Below are positions 1-15,921 of a stretch of 25,828 nt of DNA, piece by piece. The translations under genes and the position numbers were made by a program. The DNA lies in the IMG/VR virus record IMGVR_UViG_3300020430_000083, positions 1-25,828 of that record. One strand, written 5' to 3'. Below the pieces are notes generated by a model. It saw only the letters and a program-made list of their open reading frames with translations. It did no database searches and was not told the origin of the DNA. The first letter of the stretch is position 1; each line of letters begins with the position of its first letter. Source of the DNA: a virus.

Positions 1-223
1 CAAACCCCCATGCTTTTAGAGCCAAGGCTTTTCTAGTGGGTGTTCCGTCTTTGTTTTTCATTGCGCCCTTCATTCCAGCGAATCTTGCGGCGAACGAAAC
101 ACGGCGGCTGTCCGTTCCAGTCTTTTGCGGTCTTTTAAGATTAGAACCTTCTGTTCGATTTAGATGCTTTCTGCCTGCTTCATTCAAGCCACCACTAGGA
201 TTCTGATGTTTTTTAAGTACCAT
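1..223 (-). CDS. DUF6321-like small basic protein (C-terminus cut by window edge)
   Basis: An open frame starts at ATG 223 and runs off the left edge after 74 codons. It begins MVLKKHQNPSGGLNEAGRKH and continues with an arginine-rich centre and the block FAARFAGMKGAMKNKDGTPT, then RKALALKAWGF. The NPxGGLNxxGR start and the ARxxGMxGxM...PTRKALALKxW ending match what I know of the DUF6321 family, small phage proteins usually found near terminase and portal genes. The function is unknown; the basic character and position suggest a packaging or head role (inference). Its start lies inside the last 11 bases of the upstream gene, suggesting translational coupling. Family assignment is from memory of the motif. 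Confidence 0.7.
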   Translation of the reverse strand, partial: MVLKKHQNPSGGLNEAGRKHLNRTEGSNLKRPQKTGTDSRRVSFAARFAGMKGAMKNKDGTPTRKALALKAWGF

Positions 224-344
224 CTTTATCTTCTTCCTTTGGCTCTACATCACTAGGCAAATCTTCATTTGCATTAGATTCAGGTTCAGGCTGTGGATGT
301 ATCGGCTCCCTATGTTTTGGATTTCTGTAATACTTTTCTGCCAT
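213..344 (-). CDS. 43-residue acidic/proline-rich small phage protein
   Basis: The reading frame MAEKYYRNPKHREPIHPQPE continues with a Glu/Asp-rich tail ending EEDKDGT. ATG 344 follows the stop of the upstream gene (347-349) by two bases, and the gene overlaps the next start by 11 bases, so it fits the tightly tiled operon. The N-terminal half is basic and proline-rich, the C-terminal half strongly acidic. No domain or transmembrane helix is visible. I do not recognise a family. The tiling is the main evidence that it is real. Confidence 0.55.
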   Translation of the reverse strand: MAEKYYRNPKHREPIHPQPEPESNANEDLPSDVEPKEEDKDGT

Positions 345-346
345 AA

Positions 347-610
347 TTACCCTAGTGTTGATTTTGGTGAACTTGATGCACCAGCCATATTGGTTGGTGT
401 ATTCAAAGATTTCTGTTTAGGCTGTGGTGCAGATGACACAGACATCTTAATGTTTGAACCAGGTGCATTAGCTTCCGGGAACATTCTTTGTGTCAAAGTC
501 TGTAGGTTTCTTTTCCTATCATATTCTGACAAACCCGGAGCCCTTTGGTTATGCTTTCGCAAGGATGTCATATTCTGCCGCATCCTATCCATCATAACGC
601 CTGACATCAT
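347..610 (-). CDS. Hypothetical small phage protein, 87 aa
   Basis: The protein begins MMSGVMMDRMRQNMTSLRKH: a Met/Arg-rich possibly helical N-terminus, followed by a low-complexity Ser/Pro/Ala tail ending SSSPKSTLG. The AAGGGG ribosome-binding site sits four bases before ATG 610, directly after the previous stop at 611-613. ATG 607 is an alternative start. It lies among the small genes that follow the large terminase and presumably precede the portal (off the window). No recognised domain; probably a virion-assembly or head-associated accessory protein, by position only. A plus-strand open frame over the same bases is rejected because it opposes the operon. Confidence 0.6.
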   Translation of the reverse strand: MMSGVMMDRMRQNMTSLRKHNQRAPGLSEYDRKRNLQTLTQRMFPEANAPGSNIKMSVSSAPQPKQKSLNTPTNMAGASSSPKSTLG

Positions 611-877
611 TTAACCCCTTGGATTTCTAACACTCGGCCCAAGTGTGCTTTGGCCACCTTGGTTATTTTGATTACCTTGGTTGCCTTGCTGGTTGCCAAT
701 TCTTGATTCATCCATAAGGATTGATTGTGAACCACGCCTTGCCCTGCTTCTAGCTGCAAATCTTTTTGATTCACGTTTTTTATTAGCCGCCGCCGCCGCT
801 TCACGCCTAGACAATGTTTCGTCTACTACCGCTGGTGGTGGTGGCGGAGCTTTTGGGGCTCTAAAAATTCCACCCAT
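611..877 (-). CDS. Proline-rich MGGIF-type small phage protein, 88 aa
   Basis: The N-terminus MGGIFRAPKAPPPPP carries five consecutive prolines. It is followed by an alanine/arginine-rich helical stretch (residues about 25-50, RREAAAAANKKRESKRFAAR) and a Gln/Asn/Gly-rich tail. Proteins starting MGG(I/L/V)F with a proline tract are common in podoviruses and siphoviruses near head genes; their function is not established. The gene starts one base after the stop of the gp13-like gene, with GAGGT upstream of ATG 877. The alanine run comes from a GCC triplet repeat and the proline run from repeated CCA/CCG, locally GC-rich compared with the surroundings. Confidence 0.7.
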   Translation of the reverse strand: MGGIFRAPKAPPPPPAVVDETLSRREAAAAANKKRESKRFAARSRARRGSQSILMDESRIGNQQGNQGNQNNQGGQSTLGPSVRNPRG

Positions 878-878
878 A

Positions 879-1370
879 TTAGTACCTCGCCATCATTAAA
901 TAGTTACTTCCTTCCGGGCCGTACTTATGTAAGACCCCTTCATTCTTAAAATAACATCTTTTTGCCCACTCGAGAGCCAAAGCATTTTCAGAGCTGACAG
1001 TTATTTGCAGTCTATTTATATCAGGTTTGCTCATAACTTCATCAAAGATACGCATAGATGCACGGTGAAAAGGGAAGACATATTTCCTAATATTTTCTGT
1101 AGTTGGAATTAACCACGCTTCATAAACACCATTCCACATCCTTGTGAATCCAAAGCAACACGCAACAACACCTTCGCCAATCCCGGTAAAGGCATAACCC
1201 TTTGGGCAAGCACTAGCTAAAATTTGTTCATAATTATCATAGTTGTCATACCACGCCTGATCATATTTATTCATTTTAAGCATAGCTACATGGCTAGGAT
1301 GCCAATCTACAATTTTATATTTAGGGAAAGCTATCCCTGTTAAGCTGTTCAATTCACCTGCTGAAAACAT
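879..1370 (-). CDS. T7 gp13-like virion protein with GNAT-like fold
   Basis: The protein is 163 aa from ATG 1370; a TTG one codon upstream is less likely. The layout matches the T7 gp13 family (PF11090, acetyltransferase-like): a central strand with ACCFGFTRMWNGVYEAWLI (residues about 90-108), a helix FPFHRASMRIFDEVM, then LQITVSSENALALEWAKRCYFKNEG and a final YLMMARY strand. In T7, gp13 is an internal virion protein needed for particle maturation. Catalytic acetyltransferase activity is doubtful because the usual acetyl-CoA loop is not evident. The gene overlaps the end of the large terminase by 17 bases, so the two are probably translationally coupled. Confidence 0.72.
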   Translation of the reverse strand: MFSAGELNSLTGIAFPKYKIVDWHPSHVAMLKMNKYDQAWYDNYDNYEQILASACPKGYAFTGIGEGVVACCFGFTRMWNGVYEAWLIPTTENIRKYVFPFHRASMRIFDEVMSKPDINRLQITVSSENALALEWAKRCYFKNEGVLHKYGPEGSNYLMMARY

Positions 1371-2868
1371 CAAAATCCATTACCTTTGCTTGTTGAGCAC
1401 CAAATTGTGCTTGTGGTCTTCTGACCATCCCCCTATGTTCACCACCACCAAGAAACAGGTAAGCAGCCGCATCACCCACGTGGCTATGCTCGTTTTTGTT
1501 TGGGGTATCCCTGAAGCGTTCTGACGCAGAACCAATCTGAATCCTTTTAAAATGATACCCACCTGCCAAGGCTTTTCTTAGCCGCACACAAGATCTGTTA
1601 ATCATAAACCCTGGCTTACCTTCTATAAGCCTGCCCATTGGAATGGCCATAGCTTCACGCCTAGTTCTAAAATCATTGGTGTGTGTAGGTCTTGCTAGGA
1701 TTCCGTGCTGCTTAAGATGATCAAAAGCTGTAGATTCAAAAATTTGGTCTCTTTGCATACCTGCGGGATCACCCCATACCATTACTTCAAATTTTGGGAA
1801 ATGCTGTTCTATGGCTGTCTTAAGGGCAGTAACGAACCTATTTAGACCCATATCGAAAGTTACTAGCTCATGCAGAACATTCCATCTGCCATTCCTAAGT
1901 TTTTGTGCAAACACGGCGGCTGGTGTCAAACCAAAGTCCAAGCCAATATTTACCGGGATTGTAGGATCTGCTTCTAGATCTTCTACCATAAGATTATCAT
2001 TGTATTCAGACCAAACAGGCTTTCCTTCCTGCACATAGGTATATTCACCTTGTGCATAGCATTTGATCCAGTCACCATTCTTTCCGCCAAGCAGCTGGTC
2101 ATAGTAGCCATCTACAAGATTGCTAATGTTTTCTGCTTTGGAATTTGTTTTCCACCACTTGCCTGATTGAAATGTAAAACCCTGAGCTTCAGGCATATCT
2201 TCGGGCACATCAGATGGATCTACTTCTATAACCCCACCGGGTTGCCTAAAAAATTTCCAAGCAAACTTTCCTTTGGGTGTTTCTTTTTCTGCCAATCGAT
2301 AATACCAGTGATCATCATCCATTGGGTTTGTATCAAGGATGACACCACGCCAAGACGGGCCTCCATCACTTTTACTAGGGAATCTCCCTACTCTATGTGA
2401 CAGGCCATGTATAACTGCCACCGGGAGCTCACGAGCCTCATTGACCCACGCCCCGGTGAGTTCAAGGCTAAGAAGTTTTCGCACGTCTTTAGCATCATCC
2501 AACGCAAGAAAGATTATTTCACAGTCTATCCCGGCCGCTCCATCACGACTTGGCATTTTGATGTGGTGCGTTATTGGGGGTGCATACTTCACCGCTCCAT
2601 ACAAATGTTCAGGTGCTACTTCCAACCACGTCTTGAGTGTTGTGGTTCTAAGCATAGGGTGGGTGTTTCTGACAATTGCAAATCTTGTGTATTTGATGCC
2701 ATCCCTTGGACTAGCCTTTTGTTGGATGGCTCGCTTCAAAATTTCTGTACAGCAGGCAAAAGATTTCCCGGACCCCACCGGACCCATAATCCCCCGGACA
2801 AAAGAATTGTCCTGCAAAAAATTTGCTATGGTAGGACTGCTTGAAAAATCAAATTTAGTATTCTGCAT
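1354..2868 (-). CDS. terL: Terminase large subunit (DNA-packaging ATPase/nuclease)
   Basis: This 504-aa protein is the phage packaging motor. The Walker A motif GPVGSGKS lies at residues 29-36 and a Walker B-like strand GAWVNEARE at 139-147, with the acidic E145 in the VNEARE context typical of podovirus terminases. The C-terminal RNase H-like nuclease shows GLDFGLTP (D311), VWGDPAG (D367) and HVGDAAAYL (D466), the expected acidic metal-binding triad. Length is normal for T7/HMO-type TerL (500-600 aa). ATG 2868 lies inside the end of the zinc-protein gene (14-base overlap). The small terminase is two genes upstream, as expected for a packaging operon. Confidence 0.93.
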   Translation of the reverse strand: MQNTKFDFSSSPTIANFLQDNSFVRGIMGPVGSGKSFACCTEILKRAIQQKASPRDGIKYTRFAIVRNTHPMLRTTTLKTWLEVAPEHLYGAVKYAPPITHHIKMPSRDGAAGIDCEIIFLALDDAKDVRKLLSLELTGAWVNEARELPVAVIHGLSHRVGRFPSKSDGGPSWRGVILDTNPMDDDHWYYRLAEKETPKGKFAWKFFRQPGGVIEVDPSDVPEDMPEAQGFTFQSGKWWKTNSKAENISNLVDGYYDQLLGGKNGDWIKCYAQGEYTYVQEGKPVWSEYNDNLMVEDLEADPTIPVNIGLDFGLTPAAVFAQKLRNGRWNVLHELVTFDMGLNRFVTALKTAIEQHFPKFEVMVWGDPAGMQRDQIFESTAFDHLKQHGILARPTHTNDFRTRREAMAIPMGRLIEGKPGFMINRSCVRLRKALAGGYHFKRIQIGSASERFRDTPNKNEHSHVGDAAAYLFLGGGEHRGMVRRPQAQFGAQQAKVMDFDVFSR

Positions 2869-7802: not shown

Positions 7803-7827
7803 ATAGTTTATGGGAAAGGGAATTATA

Positions 7828-8520
7828 ATGAACAAGGTAGCTTATGGATTGGTAAGGGTATCAACCCACAAACAAGATGTGGAACATCAGATACAGAAGA
7901 TAAGGGAACACTATCCTAATGTAAAGGACTTCTTCATAGAAGAAGGGGTAAGTGGAAAGCTAACAAGATCTGACAGACCTATCTTCCAACAAGCTATTGC
8001 TACTTGTAAGAAAGAAAAGGCAACACTTGTTGTCACCAAGTTAGATAGACTAGGCAGAAATGCTAGTGACATATTAGATTTTTTTCAGAATGAAATTCAA
8101 AAAGGTAGGGTTGATGTAGAAGTTATAGGTTGTCCATTAGACCCTATGACTACACCAATTATGGTGGGTGTAAGTAGTGTTGAAAGGTATCTGATTTCAG
8201 AAAGAACTAAGGATGCCTTGGCTAACATCAACAAAGAAATAAAAGACAAAGGATTCTATATGACCAAGGATGGTAGGAAGATTACCACACTTGGATCACC
8301 AAAGAATTTGTCCAAGGCTAGTGCCAAAGGTCTAGTCACAAGAAGGGCAAAGGCAGACTTGTTTGCAGAAGCAAAGCTACCCCTGATAAAAAGCCTACAA
8401 GATAAGGGGATGTCACTTAGGGGTATAGCCACAAGGCTTAATGAACTAGGTGAAAGAACCATAAGGGGTAATGAATATTCTGCACAACAAGTAAAACTTA
8501 TACTTGATAGGTGTGCATAA
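7828..8520 (+). CDS. Small serine recombinase (resolvase/invertase family)
   Basis: The protein is 230 aa from ATG 7828 (AAAGGG seven bases upstream). The N-terminal catalytic domain has YGLVRVST with nucleophile S12 and R10, EEGVSGK (38-44), TKLDRLGRNASD (R74, R77) and VERYLISERTKDAL (R126 in the ERT motif), matching the resolvase family. After the long E helix comes TTLGSPKNL and a C-terminal helix-turn-helix SLQDKGMSLRGIATRLNELG. Such enzymes cut all four strands and invert, resolve or integrate DNA. I see no inverted-repeat crossover sites in the window. It could be the integrase of a temperate phage or an accessory recombinase. Confidence 0.92.
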   Translation: MNKVAYGLVRVSTHKQDVEHQIQKIREHYPNVKDFFIEEGVSGKLTRSDRPIFQQAIATCKKEKATLVVTKLDRLGRNASDILDFFQNEIQKGRVDVEVIGCPLDPMTTPIMVGVSSVERYLISERTKDALANINKEIKDKGFYMTKDGRKITTLGSPKNLSKASAKGLVTRRAKADLFAEAKLPLIKSLQDKGMSLRGIATRLNELGERTIRGNEYSAQQVKLILDRCA

Positions 8521-8711
8521 TGATTATCAATGTGTCTACAGATTTCATAGATGGCTACAAATCTGCCATCCAAGATGCAAAGGATGGTGGGTTGTATGAC
8601 CTAGCAAATGCTTTGCTTATGTTTGAACTTGATCCACCTGATAGTGAAACCCAAAGGGGTTATCATTATGGTGTGAAGATTATGTACAACAAACAAAAAG
8701 AAAGGGGGTGA
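8520..8711 (+). CDS. Small phage protein, 63 aa
   Basis: ATG 8520 overlaps the recombinase stop by one base (TAATG), with AGGTG seven bases upstream; a longer start at 8511 is less likely. The protein reads MIINVSTDFIDGYKSAIQDA, then GGLYDLANALLMFELDPPDS and a basic tail MYNKQKERG. It appears mostly helical and acidic with no recognised domain. The reading frame ends at TGA right after GGGGG; the frame +1 from here is open and encodes a membrane segment (next feature), so either a programmed shift or simple adjacency is possible. Confidence 0.62.
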   Translation: MIINVSTDFIDGYKSAIQDAKDGGLYDLANALLMFELDPPDSETQRGYHYGVKIMYNKQKERG

Positions 8712-8715
8712 TTTT

Positions 8716-8874
8716 ATCCTAGAAATTTTCAAGTTTGTAGGTGGTGTCCTATTGGGCATCATCTTCTTGGTGTTTGTGTGGGCATCCTTTTGGATTGGAT
8801 GTGCATTAGATGATGTCTGCTATGAACAAAACACAAACCCACATTATTATATAGAAGGGAAAGCTAATGGCTAA
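8716..8874 (+). CDS. Putative single-span membrane protein, non-AUG start or frameshift product
   Basis: A frame open from 8677 to the TAA at 8872-8874 encodes ILEIFKFVGGVLLGIIFLVF, then VWASFWIGCALDDVCYEQNT and a tail ending YIEGKANG: a clear transmembrane helix with two cysteines after it. No ATG or GTG start exists in frame before the helix. A strong AAAGGGGGTG site (8701-8710) sits seven bases before an ATC at 8716; TTG 8752 is the first ordinary alternative. The frame is also what results if a ribosome shifts +1 at the stop of the previous gene. It ends eight bases inside the exonuclease gene. The protein-like composition and tiling support it; the start is uncertain. Confidence 0.48.
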   Translation: MLEIFKFVGGVLLGIIFLVFVWASFWIGCALDDVCYEQNTNPHYYIEGKANG

Positions 8875-9808
8875 ACATACCATTACAGGAAAGGAACTAG
8901 GCACTTCTGAATTGCCGCCACTAGTTCTTAAGAAGACAGCATTTCAAACAAGGCAACAAGTTTGGGATAGGCAATTCAAAGCTAGTAGGGGTGTGGAATC
9001 TATTGAACATATCAGGAATCAATCTGCATTAGATAGGGGAAACTTCCTACAAGATGGGGTGGCGGCTTGGGCAATGTATGAATTGCAAAAGAAAACTTCA
9101 GCCACCCTATCACAATTCGAACCAAGGGATGCCTTTAGAATTAAAGAACTAAAGCTAGGTGCTACCCTTGATAATGTACTTACCATTGAGAATGGAATCT
9201 TGGAATTAGAATATGATGGATTCACCTATGAATTTTCAGGTGATGTGAATCACGAAACCAAGACAGACTTCTATCACAATGGTGTGCCCAAAGCTGATTG
9301 GATTATTCAATGCAATGGACAGATGATGTGTAGTGGTATTGATCAATCTATCATTAGTGTCTTGGCACAAGATGGTAAGCTACATCTATACCCTTGCAGA
9401 ATAGATAAAGAATTGTGTGATGTTATTGCACAGATCTGTTCTGATTTTTGGGAAAGGATAGACAAGGAAGAAAACTATCCTGACCTAGTGGAAGAATCTG
9501 CAAAAGAATTTGTGGATCTTTCACAACACCTTCACAAAACCAACAAGGATCTTGATGGTATGTGTGCAGATCTGAAACATCTGCGTGCAGAAGCCAATGC
9601 TTTTAGTAAGAAGGCAAAGGAAGTGCAAGGTGAAATAGTAGGTGTGATGGACAAGCTAGGTATCACACATGGCATGACCAACACCTTTGAAATTGTATCT
9701 GAACTAGTGTCCAAGCCTAAGAAAAAATATGTGGATACAGGACAGACACAAGAATCTATTAACTTTAAACTAAAGGAAAGGAAAGAAGATGGGAACGCAG
9801 ATAATTAA
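8867..9808 (+). CDS. YqaJ-type phage recombination exonuclease
   Basis: The 313-aa protein has a PD-(D/E)xK nuclease layout: LDRGNFLQDGVAAWAMYE (helix with the family's R-G), GATLDNV with D102, then EFSGDVNHETKTDF with E130 and K132, and DWIIQCNGQMMCSGIDQSII (Q148, Q152), followed by LHLYPCRID and a helix SDFWERIDK. This matches YqaJ/lambda-exonuclease-like enzymes that resect double-stranded ends for annealing recombination. Residues about 210-265 are a charged coiled-coil-like region. The next gene encodes a RecT-type annealing partner, overlapping by 20 bases, which strengthens the call. ATG 8867 follows AGAAGGGAAAG. Confidence 0.84.
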   Translation: MAKHTITGKELGTSELPPLVLKKTAFQTRQQVWDRQFKASRGVESIEHIRNQSALDRGNFLQDGVAAWAMYELQKKTSATLSQFEPRDAFRIKELKLGATLDNVLTIENGILELEYDGFTYEFSGDVNHETKTDFYHNGVPKADWIIQCNGQMMCSGIDQSIISVLAQDGKLHLYPCRIDKELCDVIAQICSDFWERIDKEENYPDLVEESAKEFVDLSQHLHKTNKDLDGMCADLKHLRAEANAFSKKAKEVQGEIVGVMDKLGITHGMTNTFEIVSELVSKPKKKYVDTGQTQESINFKLKERKEDGNADN

Positions 9809-10790
9809 ACCCACTAATCTTACAGAGCTTATGGAATTTTCCCAAGCTCTTGCTAAGTCAGGGTTAGTTCCTAATGATTACCAAGGTAAGCCAAACAATA
9901 TTGTAGTGGCATTACAATGGGGATCTGAAATAGGACTAGCACCTATGCAGGCATTGCAGAATATTTCTGTCATCAATGGTAGGGCAGCTGTGTGGGGTGA
10001 TTCAATGTTAGCATTGGTCACATCACACAAAGATTTTGCAGGCATACAAGAAACCTTTGAAGGTGAGACAGCTGTTTGCATTGTCAAAAGGATGTTGAAG
10101 ACTGGTGAAGTACAAGAAACCAGGGGTGAGTTCAGCATTGATATGGCAAAGAAGGCAGGTCTATGGGGAAGGAAAGGACCGTGGACTAGCTATCCTAATA
10201 GGATGTTGCAGATGCGGGCACGTGGTTTTGCTTTGCGTGATGCCTTCCCGGATGCACTCAAAGGTTCTATGTCTGTAGAAGAAGTCAATGACACACCACC
10301 CCAAGAAACACCACCCCATACAGAAGCAGACAAGGTGGTCAACATAGGTGATGTAGGGTCAAGTGCCAAAGAAATTGTTAAGGCTGTCAAGGAAGCAGAT
10401 AAGCCTAGCAATGACGCAGAGCAGTTAGGCCAAGGCGAAGTTGTGGTGTCACCTACTGAACAAGAGGTGAGCGAAACAGAAGCATCAGAAATTATGCTAC
10501 ATATTCCTAGATGTGCGCCTGAATCTTTTGCAGATATGGAAGGGTATTGCAAAAGATACTATGCTTTGCAACAAGCTGTTGTTGATTCTACCAAGATAGA
10601 ACCAAGGGATAAGATGACTAAGTTAAGGGAACTTGAAGAACAAAATATCAAGACCCTTGAATCAGATCCTAAAGGTGTTGAACTTCTTGATAGAAGAATC
10701 AAGTTAAACAAATACCTTGGTGCGGCAGAACATCATCAAGATGAATCTGCTACTGCAATGAAAGAATGTTTAGGTGAAGCCAATGAATAA
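9789..10790 (+). CDS. recT: RecT-family single-strand annealing protein
   Basis: The 333-aa protein has the RecT core in residues 1-165: ELMEFSQALAKSGLVPNDYQ, NIVVALQWGSEIGLAPMQALQNISVINGRAAVWGDSMLALV, a middle block ending FSIDMAKKAGL, then GPWTSYPNRMLQMRARGFALRDAFPDALKG. The 'G.e.Gl.pmqALqnI.viNGk..l.gd...alv' signature and the YP.RM...RA..falrd ending are typical. It anneals complementary single strands made by the exonuclease. Residues about 170-235 are a disordered acidic linker and the last 100 residues form an extra helical region (PRCAPESFADMEGYCKRYY...). ATG 9789 is preceded by AAAGGAAAG. Confidence 0.88.
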   Translation: MGTQIIKPTNLTELMEFSQALAKSGLVPNDYQGKPNNIVVALQWGSEIGLAPMQALQNISVINGRAAVWGDSMLALVTSHKDFAGIQETFEGETAVCIVKRMLKTGEVQETRGEFSIDMAKKAGLWGRKGPWTSYPNRMLQMRARGFALRDAFPDALKGSMSVEEVNDTPPQETPPHTEADKVVNIGDVGSSAKEIVKAVKEADKPSNDAEQLGQGEVVVSPTEQEVSETEASEIMLHIPRCAPESFADMEGYCKRYYALQQAVVDSTKIEPRDKMTKLRELEEQNIKTLESDPKGVELLDRRIKLNKYLGAAEHHQDESATAMKECLGEANE

Positions 10791-11022: not shown

Positions 11023-11201
11023 GTATGGAAGAAGCAATCCACTTCGATAAAGAAAAAGCAGAAGCGTTTAGGGATGAATACATCAAGGCTATGACACATG
11101 GCAAGGACACCTTTATCTTTGAAGGCAAAGGAATCTTTACAGACTATGCCAAGTATATGTGTGAACACCTAACAAATGTAGGGTTACTACCTAAGAACTA
11201 G
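11019..11201 (+). CDS. Conserved small phage protein, 60 aa
   Basis: ATG 11019 overlaps the upstream stop as ATGA. The sequence MSMEEAIHFDKEKAEAFRDE continues YIKAMTHGKDTFIFEGKGIFTDYAKYMCEHL. The pattern 'F...k...f...Y..A...g.d.F.F.g....t.YAkYl.E.L' is one I associate with small conserved phage proteins of unknown role. Its TAG stop (11199-11201) is read on the other strand as the lysozyme stop (11198-11200). It is the last gene of the plus block and no terminator follows it. Confidence 0.72.
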   Translation: MSMEEAIHFDKEKAEAFRDEYIKAMTHGKDTFIFEGKGIFTDYAKYMCEHLTNVGLLPKN

Positions 11202-11644
11202 AGTTCTGCCCTAAAAATTTCTGCAATCCTATGGGCTCGCTGACCTACTTGGCGAGCCCATTTGCTATCTAGTGCTTCTGAATATGCACGCACACCATCA
11301 TCAGATTCAATAGCATCAAGCATGTTTTGGAATTGTAATAGCCGTGGCAGTCCAAGGTTGTAGCACATATTCAATAGTGCTTCTTGTACTTCTTCTTTCT
11401 TTTCTTCTATCCAAGGTAGGGATGTAGATAGTTCTTCCCACATATCCTTCAATGTATTCTGCAAAAGATACATAGCTTCATCTTCTGTTAGGCCACCACC
11501 CTGATCAGGATCTACAAGTTTACCATAACCAATTGTCCAATAGCCTAGATGATCCTTGTACAAAGTATGCTTACCATCATTGATAACTGCACCTTCATCC
11601 CGGACAATAGCTGCAAGCAGTCTGTCCTTATCTAGATGTTCCAT
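11198..11644 (-). CDS. Endolysin, GH24 lysozyme (T4-type muramidase)
   Basis: The 148-aa enzyme has the GH24 catalytic pattern: E17 in IVRDEG, then LYKDHLGYWTIGYGK with D31 and T37, the E/D/T triad, followed by the helical lobe with EEVQEALLNMCYNLGLPRLLQFQNML. Spacing E to D (14 residues) is longer than in T4 lysozyme (9), as in many phage GH24 enzymes. It cleaves the glycan strands of peptidoglycan at lysis. No signal peptide or SAR helix is visible at the N-terminus, so release should depend on the holin at 12177-12563. ATG 11644 overlaps the upstream stop by one base (TAATG). Confidence 0.92.
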   Translation of the reverse strand: MEHLDKDRLLAAIVRDEGAVINDGKHTLYKDHLGYWTIGYGKLVDPDQGGGLTEDEAMYLLQNTLKDMWEELSTSLPWIEEKKEEVQEALLNMCYNLGLPRLLQFQNMLDAIESDDGVRAYSEALDSKWARQVGQRAHRIAEIFRAEL

Positions 11645-11844
11645 TATGCAGACGCCTTCTTCTTCTTGCCATACTTCCGCTTCATCTTTTTTCTAAGTGC
11701 ATCCTTAGATGTCTTAGCAGATTGAACAAATGCTTTGTTGGTAGGCGCACCTTCTGCTCCCGGCTTCCTCATTTTTTCGCCGCTACCTTTTTTGATTCGC
11801 TCACGCTTGGCATGGATGTTGGCGTATAAACCCGGCTTTGCCAT
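11644..11844 (-). CDS. Basic KPGLYANIHAK protein with KYGKKK tail, 66 aa
   Basis: The N-terminus MAKPGLYANIHAKRERIKKG followed by SGEKMRKPGAEGAPT is a block I recognise from many phage genomes, especially marine ones, with no assigned function. The C-terminus ends LRKKMKRKYGKKKKASA, which matches the tails of the next two genes. Very lysine-rich with almost no acidic residues; it could bind DNA or RNA, or be carried in virions (inference). A GGAGG site encoded in the last codons of the upstream gene precedes ATG 11844. Confidence 0.75.
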   Translation of the reverse strand: MAKPGLYANIHAKRERIKKGSGEKMRKPGAEGAPTNKAFVQSAKTSKDALRKKMKRKYGKKKKASA

Positions 11845-11846
11845 AA

Positions 11847-12041
11847 CTATACCTCCTTCCTTTTACCATATTTCTTTTTTAATTTTTTTTGTAATGACTT
11901 TGGTAAATCACTTAAATGAAAAAGTGTTTTACTTTTGGATGTATGTGTTTTGCCTGAGTGTAAAGTTCCATCAGACATTTTGTGCATAGAACCTTTGTGT
12001 TCTTTTCCATCCTTTGTGAAATGCTTAACACCTTTAGCCAT
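11847..12041 (-). CDS. Basic MAKGVKHF-type protein with KYGKRK tail, 64 aa
   Basis: The protein starts MAKGVKHFTKDGKEHKGSMH and continues KMSDGTLHSGKTHT, a histidine/glycine/lysine-rich block known to me from phage small proteins (MAKGVKHF.rDG..hkG..HKm..G.lHtGk.Ht). It ends LQKKLKKKYGKRKEV. The His content could bind metal, but no clear site geometry is present. ATG 12041 overlaps the upstream stop by one base. Its last codons (AAG GAG GTA) double as the ribosome site for the following gene. Confidence 0.73.
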   Translation of the reverse strand: MAKGVKHFTKDGKEHKGSMHKMSDGTLHSGKTHTSKSKTLFHLSDLPKSLQKKLKKKYGKRKEV

Positions 12042-12163
12042 TAGTAGCTCGCCTTCTTCTTACCATATTTCTTTTTAAGTTTGTTTCTCATAGAAACTTT
12101 AGACATAGGTTTCTTAGCAGGTCTTCCTACCTTTGATCCATATGTTCCTTTACCCATTGGCAT
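12041..12163 (-). CDS. Tiny basic protein MPMGKGTYGSKVGRPAKK with KYGKKK tail, 40 aa
   Basis: Below the usual length cut-off but well framed: ATG 12163, stop TAA 12041-12043, one-base overlap with the next ATG. The start MPMGKGTYGSKVGRPAKK is a pattern I associate with tiny phage proteins. It contains GRPAKK (AT-hook-like) and ends MRNKLKKKYGKKKASY, sharing the tail with its two neighbours. A possible AGGGGG site (CAGCTATG context) lies upstream but is not strong. Function unknown; DNA-binding is plausible from composition. Confidence 0.68.
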   Translation of the reverse strand: MPMGKGTYGSKVGRPAKKPMSKVSMRNKLKKKYGKKKASY

Positions 12164-12176
12164 AGCTGCCCCCTTT

Positions 12177-12563
12177 CTACTTGGTTAATTTTTTACTATC
12201 TGTTCCTTTGTACTTGTCATAACTTCGCATCCCGGAAATTCCTAACATCCCGAACATCAACGGCATCATCACAGACATATCAGCCTGCGGAATGTTGACA
12301 CCAAAGCCTGCCATAATAGGTGACACCATATAGTTTATGCCAAGAGACAAGCCGCATATCCATCCAATCAATGGACGCCACGAACTTTGAAACCAATTAC
12401 CTTTGGCATCAGCTTTCAATACTTCTATTTGTTGAAGTGCTATTTCCTGCCCGTGTCTTTCCGCCATAGTTGCCAAGTCATGGGCGAGCCTAGCTTTCTG
12501 ATCTTTGTCTTCGATAAATTTATCTAGCAGTCCTGTGACAGGACCGATTAATGCTTGTAACAT
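12177..12563 (-). CDS. Holin of the 3TM (GTA_holin_3TM) family
   Basis: The 128-aa protein begins with the amphipathic MLQALIGPVTGLLDKFIEDKDQKARLAHDLATMAE, then QEIALQQIEVLKADAKGNWFQSSWRPLIGW and hydrophobic helices (WICGLSLGINYMVSPIMAGF and VMMPLMFGMLGISGM), ending in a basic tail SYDKYKGTDSKK. The 'I....g..D.......d.....a..i.....q......i..nk.ea......sWRP.iGw.c...l' order is typical of PF11351. It forms the inner-membrane lesion that releases the lysozyme. AAGGAGG lies just upstream of ATG 12563. It clusters with the endolysin and two other membrane genes. Confidence 0.82.
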   Translation of the reverse strand: MLQALIGPVTGLLDKFIEDKDQKARLAHDLATMAERHGQEIALQQIEVLKADAKGNWFQSSWRPLIGWICGLSLGINYMVSPIMAGFGVNIPQADMSVMMPLMFGMLGISGMRSYDKYKGTDSKKLTK

Positions 12564-13263: not shown

Positions 13264-13443
13264 CTACCCAAAACCTTTTATTGTTGAATTGAGTAACAAC
13301 AATATTATTGTTCCTGCTGTGCCAAGAATTATATATTCAAGGCGCTTGATCCTAGATAACATTTCATCCCACCTAGCAGAACACACTGCTTCATGGGTAG
13401 ATAATCTTTTATCTAGTTCATTTAGTGTTGTCTTTGTTGCCAT
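13264..13443 (-). CDS. XhlA-like coiled-coil/TM microprotein, 59 aa
   Basis: The frame begins MATKTTLNELDKRLSTHEAV and continues CSARWDEMLSRIKRLEYIIL, then a hydrophobic helix GTAGTIILLLLNSTI and KGFG. The 'L..RL..HE.vC..R......RikRlE.i.i..aG.ii.lLL' pattern is one I know from small phage membrane proteins related to haemolysin XhlA, an accessory to holins. One transmembrane helix at the C-terminus, preceded by an amphipathic coiled coil. It overlaps the upstream gene by 26 bases and has one stop followed by a second (TAG TGA). Length is below 60 residues. Confidence 0.68.
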   Translation of the reverse strand: MATKTTLNELDKRLSTHEAVCSARWDEMLSRIKRLEYIILGTAGTIILLLLNSTIKGFG

Positions 13444-13540
13444 CAGATTTATCTTTCTTAGGTCTACCTGGTTTAGCTTTAGTAGACTTAGATTCCTTAG
13501 AACCTTTTAGTTTAGGATTTAGATCATACAGATGTGCCAT
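13418..13540 (-). CDS. Tiny AT-hook-like lysine-rich protein, 40 aa
   Basis: ATG 13540 lies one base after the upstream stop (TAG C ATG). The peptide MAHLYDLNPKLKGSKESKST is followed by KAKPGRPKKDKSDGNKDNTK. The central KPGRPKK is a textbook AT-hook core (basic residues around GRP), which inserts in the minor groove of AT-rich DNA. Only one hook is present. It overlaps the XhlA-like gene by 26 bases. A similar GRPAKK occurs in the tiny protein at 12041-12163. Its real expression is not proven; the operon fit supports it. Confidence 0.58.
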   Translation of the reverse strand: MAHLYDLNPKLKGSKESKSTKAKPGRPKKDKSDGNKDNTK

Positions 13541-13935: not shown

Positions 13936-15921
13936 TTATGGGGTTAATTGAATCCAGTTACCAATGTAAGACAACCCATGATCCATCTGACCTTGAGCGT
14001 TATACCTCTTACCAAAGATCCTCCCGGTAGTTGTCATAAACACAGCGTGCCCTTCTGATCCTTGGGCATTGCCAAACCCGTGCATATGAACCACTTGTTC
14101 TTCTACCTTACCTGCCCAATGGGAAGTAGTGATAGCAGATGTTGTTGACCACGGCCCTATATCTAGGCGGTAGTTATTGATAGCTTGGTTGCCTGTGCTT
14201 GCTTGGTGGAAGTCTTCACTTTGTGAATAACCGCCTTGCCATATTCTAAACTTGTTATCCATCAAGAAGAAATGTCCCGTGGTTTGTCCTTGACCACCAC
14301 GTGTACCCCAAACTTTTTTAATGTCATTAACAGGCAAGGCTACATCTGTTTCTGTAGGTGCATTGTTAGATGTGGTTGATGTAGTTGTATGTGTAAATAA
14401 TGTTGTGGTTGATGGTTGTGTTGGTGATTGCACATCTGTTTGATTGCCGTTCCCAATCTGGCCTTGTCCATTGTACCCCCAAACAAAAAGATCATCATTA
14501 CAATTGTTAGGCGTACCACCTAAAGCAGCAACAGTTAGATAGTAAGAATTGCCTGCATAGTAGAAAGATGAATAAGTAGCTGAACCACCTATCCTAGTCC
14601 AAGTTCCTTTCTGAACTAGTGTTCCATCACCTACAGATCCAGTAGCATTACCACCTACACCATACAATTCACCTGATGTATTTAGATAATGACCATGTGC
14701 ATACCTTGATGTGTGGTAATGTCCATCAACATTTATTATTTGATAGACATTGTTCTGATTAGAATCAGTAAATGATGTTGAGCTTATGCCACCACCTACA
14801 CCATTCTGATTACTACCGCATATGAATAGATTACCTGATCCATCTACAACATAAGCACTTTGATAGCCTGCTGAAACAGATTTAACATTTGACACACCTG
14901 AAACTAAAACAGGAAATGATTGGTTAGTGGTGTTGCCAACCCCTAGCTTGCCACCACCATTGTATCCCCAGCTAAACAGCCGGCCTGATGTGTCAATAGC
15001 GTAGCATGAACCATAGTTACCTGATCCATTATCAGGCTGATTAGCAACATGGAAGCCTGCAATCTGACAAGATGTACCACCATGTGTAGCATCCGGGCCT
15101 AGTGTTGATATTTTTGTGAAGCTCATTCTGTCAGTTGTTCCACCAATACCAAGCTGTCCATAGGCGTTGTCACCTGCTGAAAACAAATTGCCTTCTGATG
15201 TCAGAATCCAAATGTTGTTATACATAACCCAAAATCTGACAGGGTATTCGCCATCACGCATACCACCAAACTCTGAATTAAAATTAATAACAGCACCTTG
15301 ATTATGCTTTACACCTGCACTTGTGCCAAACCAATAGAAGTCATCATCACCAAACACCACAATTTCGTGGTTGGCGTTCATATAAATAGTCATCCTATAG
15401 ATATATTGGATGCCATTTTCTGCCCAAGGAACCGGTCCACAAGCAGGATTTGCAAACCCACAATGAGGAACCCAGTTGTTAGAATAGTCTGCTAACCAAG
15501 GGTACTTACCATCCTTGCCAAAATCGTTAGATGCAGATGGATTAGATATAATGTCTGCATAATTTGTCTGAAGATACTTGTGCCCTTCATGTCCTTGTTG
15601 TGGTGCAAAGGCTATATCATTCCCATCAACAGTTACAACATCACCTGAATTACCCCTAGCTAACCTAATACTAGTAGTACCATTGTGTGTTAGAATATCA
15701 CCTTGGGTGGTCAATGGATTCGCCCCATCCGCCATCAGATCCCAATGTGTTGTATTACTTGTTGATGGTGTCCCGGCTGCAGAACCCGTCTTGGATGTGG
15801 TATTCACATAAACCCAAGATGATCCCCCGCTAGATACAACATCATCTGCTTCATACGTGTTAGAATTGCTAAAAGCTCCCCGCCAAGTGAACTTTATTTT
15901 TCCTAAATCTACTGTCGCCAC
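13936..15921 (-). CDS. Tail protein with RCC1-type seven-blade beta-propeller
   Basis: The start is GTG 15921 with AAGGAGG upstream. The 661-aa protein opens with a carbohydrate-binding-like module (WRGAFSNSNTYEADDVVSSG...SWVYVN...THWDLMADG, residues 13-66), then PLTTQGDILTHNGTTSIRLARG, a phage tail motif. From residue 243 it has seven RCC1-type repeats with the 'G.L..WG.N..GQLG.G' signature at about 243, 312, 362, 416, 477, 556 and 632, matching one full seven-bladed propeller. It is likely the receptor-binding or host-recognition tail component carried by the T7-type fibre encoded just upstream. Repeats 3, 6 and 7 are more divergent. Confidence 0.8.
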   Translation of the reverse strand: MATVDLGKIKFTWRGAFSNSNTYEADDVVSSGGSSWVYVNTTSKTGSAAGTPSTSNTTHWDLMADGANPLTTQGDILTHNGTTSIRLARGNSGDVVTVDGNDIAFAPQQGHEGHKYLQTNYADIISNPSASNDFGKDGKYPWLADYSNNWVPHCGFANPACGPVPWAENGIQYIYRMTIYMNANHEIVVFGDDDFYWFGTSAGVKHNQGAVINFNSEFGGMRDGEYPVRFWVMYNNIWILTSEGNLFSAGDNAYGQLGIGGTTDRMSFTKISTLGPDATHGGTSCQIAGFHVANQPDNGSGNYGSCYAIDTSGRLFSWGYNGGGKLGVGNTTNQSFPVLVSGVSNVKSVSAGYQSAYVVDGSGNLFICGSNQNGVGGGISSTSFTDSNQNNVYQIINVDGHYHTSRYAHGHYLNTSGELYGVGGNATGSVGDGTLVQKGTWTRIGGSATYSSFYYAGNSYYLTVAALGGTPNNCNDDLFVWGYNGQGQIGNGNQTDVQSPTQPSTTTLFTHTTTSTTSNNAPTETDVALPVNDIKKVWGTRGGQGQTTGHFFLMDNKFRIWQGGYSQSEDFHQASTGNQAINNYRLDIGPWSTTSAITTSHWAGKVEEQVVHMHGFGNAQGSEGHAVFMTTTGRIFGKRYNAQGQMDHGLSYIGNWIQLTP

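Follow-up and report, generated by a model that had tools for sequence, protein, structure and literature searches.

A basic C-terminal tail shared by unrelated micro-proteins in the lysis cassette of a marine podovirus clade, with a possible role in ligand binding

Why should three adjacent tiny genes of a phage, whose products differ over most of their length, end in nearly the same peptide? The question arises in the marine podovirus record IMGVR_UViG_3300020430_000083, of which positions 1 to 25,828, the whole stretch of 25,828 nucleotides analyzed here, are called the window. On its minus strand, the genes g3, g2, and g1 are tightly packed between a holin and a lysozyme gene, the order of transcription being holin, g3, g2, g1, and lysozyme, and the spacing to the following gene is either a 1-nt overlap (TAATG) or a 2-nt gap. 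The g3 protein (12163–12041, 40 aa) is composed of the body MPMGKGTYGSKVGRPAKK and the tail MRNKLKKKYGKKKASY, the g2 protein (12041–11847, 64 aa) of the body HKMSDGTLHSGKTHT and the tail LQKKLKKKYGKRKEV, and the g1 protein (11844–11644, 66 aa) of the body GLYANIHAKR...SGEKMRKPG and the tail LRKKMKRKYGKKKKASA. An earlier note had described these three adjacent ORFs (11644–11844, 11847–12041, and 12041–12163) as ending in one C-terminal tail, and its coordinates, lengths, and endings proved exact. It had also placed them in a lysis/tail region; more precisely, they are in the lysis cassette, with the tail-fiber genes lying upstream, and not in the tail region itself. The gene immediately upstream of g3 (12177–12563, minus strand) encodes a holin of the 3TM (GTA) type (GTA_holin_3TM, PF11351, E 3.9e-17; phrog_3427, holin), and the lysozyme/endolysin gene (11198–11644, minus strand; Phage_lysozyme, PF00959, E 1.7e-11) has a start codon that overlaps the g1 stop. 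In the same window, an RCC1-repeat protein with a GTG start (13936–15921, minus strand) is found where a tail fiber would be expected.

The C-termini of g1, g2, and g3 have the pattern [LM]xxK[LM]K[KR]KYGK[KR] in common. With the 22-residue end of each protein as the shuffling unit, the summed BLOSUM62 score of the tails was 173, compared with a mean of 69 and a maximum of 115 for the shuffles, and the observed score was reached by none of 20,000 composition-preserving shuffles. Other phage loci, 2.29 Mb in all, yielded 23,147 mechanical ORFs (1,136 of them K/R-rich with a K/R-rich end), and none had the ending; since not every such ORF is a gene and the loci partly overlap, the figure of 0/23,147 is a yardstick and not a rate. 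It bears on the concern, raised when the tail was first described, that random lysine-rich proteins might show it equally often.

Close relatives were found by a lysozyme search and comprise five distinct phages (L162, L163/L164, L165, L166, and L177; L163 and L164 are identical here), with lysozymes that are 68–96% identical. The gene order is the same in all of these records (holin, g3, g1, lysozyme), and in all five the tail is found on g3 as well as on g1. The DNA pattern AARWWYGGNAARARR occurs only in the three tails in the window record and exactly twice in each of the five relatives. No g2 was found in the records of the five relatives, all of which may be fragments, and scans with lysozyme and holin profiles detected no additional tail-bearing members of the clade. 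The earlier note would have been refuted if homologues in related phages lacked the tail in two of the three genes. Within the clade it withstands this check, the tail being kept in g1 and g3 of six phages; outside the clade, the homologues examined lack it.

The tails of different genes within one phage differ at 7–13 of 33 core nucleotides and at only 2–4 of 11 residues, and 6 of the 8 differing codons between the L163 tails are synonymous. Since the nucleotide divergence between the paralogous tails is largely synonymous, it is the peptide that has been conserved, and the tails are not a fresh DNA repeat. The same counts, in which many differences are at synonymous positions, led us to reject the idea that one tail was recently duplicated, or spread by gene conversion, among the three genes. 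These sequence comparisons show that the tail is a real module conserved at the protein level in this clade. Chance convergence among small lysine-rich proteins is hardly credible and was rejected on the shuffles, the background ORFs, and the retention of the tail on both g1 and g3 throughout the clade, even though at least 120 viral-contig stretches contain KKYGKKK, often in tiny lysine-rich proteins.

Concerning the bodies, residues 1–47 of g1 match positions 1–47 of the 50-position profile phrog_16028 (E 1.9e-25), a 50-aa family of unknown function formed by the GLYANIHAKR micro-proteins of marine phages. Family members usually end near residue 50, whereas g1 continues with a 17-residue additional tail; at least 584 g1-related stretches were found in viral contigs. 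The g2 body belongs to a family present in 233 viral-contig stretches, and among phage isolates it has just two weaker relatives and no g3–g2 fusion. The g3 body, of a family widespread in marine phages, has at its N-terminus the very common GTYGSKVGRP element, which recurs in micro-proteins of cyanophages, pelagiphages, and roseophages that form no named family; these differ from g3 in ending with other C-terminal modules (LTAKQKTLPxxLxxKIxKxKK, HHTxKHM, and HTGKTHT) and have no KYGK. Outside the clade of the window, the KYGK tail was found in none of about 70 distinct g1, 17 g2, and some 70 g3 homologues. No above-threshold match to Pfam or NCBIfam profiles was obtained for g1, g2, or g3, and no solved structure matched the three proteins in sequence. 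As judged from their sequences, the bodies are mutually unrelated, as the earlier note had stated, and each comes from a common family of marine-phage micro-proteins. Neither the tail nor DUF6321, a module discussed below, is described in the papers that a word search turned up. Proteins related to the bodies are numerous and have no explanation so far; the common tail adds a new form to the modular way in which they are built.

The modular build can also be seen elsewhere. Across L362–L441, a wide variety of C-terminal modules follows the GTYGSKVGRP element, and one of these, LTAKQKTLPxxLxxKIxKxKK, also stands alone as a 29-aa protein (L102:3132–3221). In the clade itself, a LYDLNP small protein (window 13418–13540, minus strand; L163:1514–1630) has an AT-hook-like end, which reads KPGRPKK in the window and KKRGRPKKVK in relatives. 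The core of the AT-hook is RGRP. Both KVGRPAKK of g3 and KPGRPKK of the LYDLNP protein resemble AT-hook proteins, and a true RGRPKK is present in the neighboring LYDLNP-type proteins of L163 and L166; a canonical AT-hook in g3 was rejected, as g3 reads VGRP and the first arginine of the core is missing.

Relatives of these modules are located near head and packaging genes. Marine Autographiviridae encode g3 and/or g1 in the interval from the scaffold (or connector) gene to the major capsid gene, in many cases accompanied by DUF6321 (PF19846), a small basic module that adjoins g1 or is fused with it and that is unrelated in sequence to the tail. In ACG-2014e, one protein consists of a g1-like part and DUF6321 and is encoded between the terminase small and large subunits; in L066, g1 is fused to DUF6321, and in L388 and L405, g3 and g2 are in a single ORF. 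For the g2 model, a match was obtained to a portion of a viral XkdF-type protein. One protein of phage S-SCSM1 that ends in DUF6321 and is encoded in the vicinity of terL carries a virion-protein annotation; mass spectrometry detected 45 virion proteins in this phage (PMC9602691). This virion protein (L609:1666–3219) resembles a string of micro-protein modules, including DUF6321, that are separate genes in other phages, and two of its inner segments appear, by eye, similar to the separate micro-proteins just before the g2 relative of CRP-902. From their sequences and positions, g1, g2, g3, and DUF6321 appear to form a wider set of phage micro-protein modules beside or fused into head and packaging proteins. 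We infer from this that g1–g3 themselves may also be associated with the head in the clade of the window, where their genes are in the lysis cassette and not in a head operon.

KKYGKKK endings are also found on other tiny phage proteins. Many of the matches listed for KKYGKKK carry it internally and belong to other small families, e.g., IGRKKYGKKKFQKLAAKGR; 16 are distinct tiny ORFs ending in the motif. As to whether KYGK-ended proteins cluster in genomes, as the earlier note had proposed to check, portal, terminase, or DUF6321 genes lay within 2.5 kb of 6 of these 16 terminal-motif ORFs vs. 7 of 89 internal-motif ones (Fisher p 0.0045, or 0.014 once two near-identical ORFs were merged), a comparison that is confined to the matches listed and whose marker patterns were picked after some of the loci had been inspected. 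In L272, L274, L305, and L341, the tailed ORF lies immediately before the DUF6321 gene, between terminase and the head–tail connector. An RNPK-type ORF in another frame overlaps the micro-ORF with the KYGK tail (L272:2811–2964, L305:8462–8645, L341:3410–3575, and L326:1845–2058). In L274, L341, and L326, the RNPK-type ORF stops ahead of the tail, which is thus encoded by codons that only the KYGK frame, and not the RNPK frame, leaves open. As an observation in its own right, these two ORFs between terminase and portal are a candidate overlapping gene pair.

The podoviruses with these tiny ORFs (L272, L274, L305, L341, and L326) share with the window the terminal motif and the TerL, phrog_4177, MGGIF, and DUF6321 neighbors, and differ from it in the bodies, in the genome position, and in the overlap with another ORF. 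The left end of the window (2–2868) encodes TerL, a phrog_4177 protein, an MGGIF protein, and DUF6321, as in those podoviruses; the DUF6321-type micro-protein (2–223, minus strand), near the terminase and truncated by the record end, has PHROGs in common with DUF6321 proteins of other phages. No KYGK ORF is present beside the terminase and DUF6321 at this left end. Close by, a small protein at 213–344 (minus strand) and an otherwise different one of L177 (1307–1462) have the segment LPSDVEPK in common (EDLPSDVEPKEED and DSLPSDVEPKND, respectively), which is possibly a second case of a short module shared within this phage group.

In AlphaFold2 models, the tail is predicted with moderate confidence as a helix, spanning residues 47–65 in g1 (H47–65, block pLDDT about 81) and 48–58 in g2 (H48–58), where it ends at Tyr-Gly; the g2 model gave no significant match in the PDB. 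A strongly cationic predicted C-terminal helix, together with the position between holin and lysozyme in 6 of 6 phages, would suit cationic peptides that aid these two proteins in disrupting the envelope, and small cationic proteins in a lysis cassette are indeed what such lysis peptides have in common with g1–g3. However, the helical hydrophobic moment of the tail was not above that of shuffled sequences, so amphipathicity is unsupported; no signal or membrane segment was seen by eye; and the bodies neighbor head genes in the annotated phages examined. A lysis role is considered highly unlikely.

The gene junctions offer another explanation, in which the AAG-rich 3' ends serve as ribosome-binding sites of the next overlapping gene, the junction DNA has been copied or recombined, and the peptide is functionless. 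Shine-Dalgarno sites do lie inside the final tail codons, just before the next starts: AAGAAGG before g2 in the g3 tail coding region (MRNKLKKKYGKKKASY plus stop, 12041–12091), AAGGAGGT before g1 in that of g2 (LQKKLKKKYGKRKEV plus stop, 11847–11894), and AGAAGG before lysozyme in that of g1 (LRKKMKRKYGKKKKASA plus stop, 11644–11697), all on the minus strand. The last residues, namely KEV, KEA, and part of KKASA, are explained in this way. The conserved core, however, sits upstream of the Shine-Dalgarno part, and its codons change synonymously while the residues remain constant; g1 of L163 and L177 keeps the tail despite lacking a good Shine-Dalgarno site before lysozyme, and the Tyr-to-Phe changes described below are irrelevant to ribosome binding. 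A plain ribosome-binding by-product was rejected, as it leaves the core unexplained, and we regard the explanation by gene architecture as a whole as unlikely.

The g2/g1 junction likewise speaks for the copying of junction DNA. The g2 tail, known in one phage only, that of the window, is most like the L163 g3 tail, with 34 of 40 nucleotides identical and the same 2-nt gap before g1, whereas g3 in the window ends differently, with a TAATG overlap. The g2 tail and junction look derived, by their sequence, from the old g3/g1 junction. The simplest history would have g2 enter at the tail, between g3 and g1, in the lineage of the window; loss of g2 in the other lineages is possible and needs more events. 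The proposal that the tail was spread by duplication of a gene end is thus supported only in part: recent copying is at odds with the nucleotide differences between the tails, and g2 alone looks as if it had taken over an older end. Elsewhere in the window, on the opposite strand (7810–10790, plus), a serine recombinase of the DNA invertase type, a RecE-like exonuclease, and a RecT-like annealing protein are encoded, and the RecE-like/RecT-like pair could favor recombination at short repeats.

In L165, the tail tyrosine is replaced by phenylalanine in both tails through separate mutations, g3 having gone from TAT to TTT and g1 from TAC to TTC, with the third bases retained. A codon comparison of L163 with L165 gives 10 synonymous and 2 nonsynonymous differences for g1, and 1 and 2, respectively, for g3; in each gene, the tail tyrosine accounts for one of the nonsynonymous differences. 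A rough estimate, made after the fact, puts the odds of a coincidental parallel change at about 1 in 30 to 1 in 200. This substitution, a single case noticed afterwards in the sequences, is suggestive of a common ligand.

One such ligand might be an assembly protein (scaffold, portal, terminase, or lysis protein) that recognizes the same terminal peptide on unrelated proteins as an address or docking tag. In the internal proteins of T4, a capsid targeting sequence is N-terminal and is cleaved by the prohead protease. Like that sequence, the tail is a short terminal peptide common to several unrelated small proteins, and unlike it, the tail is C-terminal with no known cleavage. The identical tail type on unrelated bodies, the parallel change in L165, which fits a single recognizing partner better than general charge, and the modules g1, g2, g3, and DUF6321 that are fused together or beside head genes would all be in accordance with such a tag. 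On the other hand, there is just one co-change, a lysine-rich sequence is equally expected of DNA binding, and the genes are in the lysis cassette in this clade. Docking to an assembly protein is rather doubtful. Slightly more doubtful is a fuller version, in which the KYGK tail is an address tag that sends several unrelated micro-proteins of the clade to one assembly or DNA site, the bodies are swapped by recombination at the tail-coding ends, and a new body such as g2 would join by gaining the tag.

Taken together, the sequences and models are most easily reconciled with binding of nucleic acid or docking to a partner. Our preferred, still tentative form of it, to which we give slightly less than an even chance, is that the tail acts as a basic C-terminal helix giving tiny proteins affinity for one shared ligand, with DNA the likelier candidate. 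A lysine-rich helix leading to Tyr-Gly and then a basic run, placed on two (in the window, three) unrelated tiny basic proteins, would confer binding to one ligand common to all tailed proteins; DNA, during packaging or inside the head, would be somewhat likelier than a common assembly protein. The last codons would double as ribosome-binding sites of the next gene, and the alike tail DNA at the gene junctions may have allowed the clean insertion of g2 between g3 and g1. Both the ligand and the route of g2 insertion are what we infer. Points against this reading are the location of the genes in the lysis cassette, the unremarkable helical moment of the tail, and the RNPK-type frame that overlaps some of the KYGK micro-ORFs close to portal genes.

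Phage genomes are rich in tiny basic proteins without an assigned role, and a constant tail on differing bodies, with a parallel substitution in two genes, provides a handle on micro-protein function. If the tail is truly an address tag, it would represent a compact signal for cargo loading or DNA packaging, and it would illustrate how a process already in place takes on new micro-genes.
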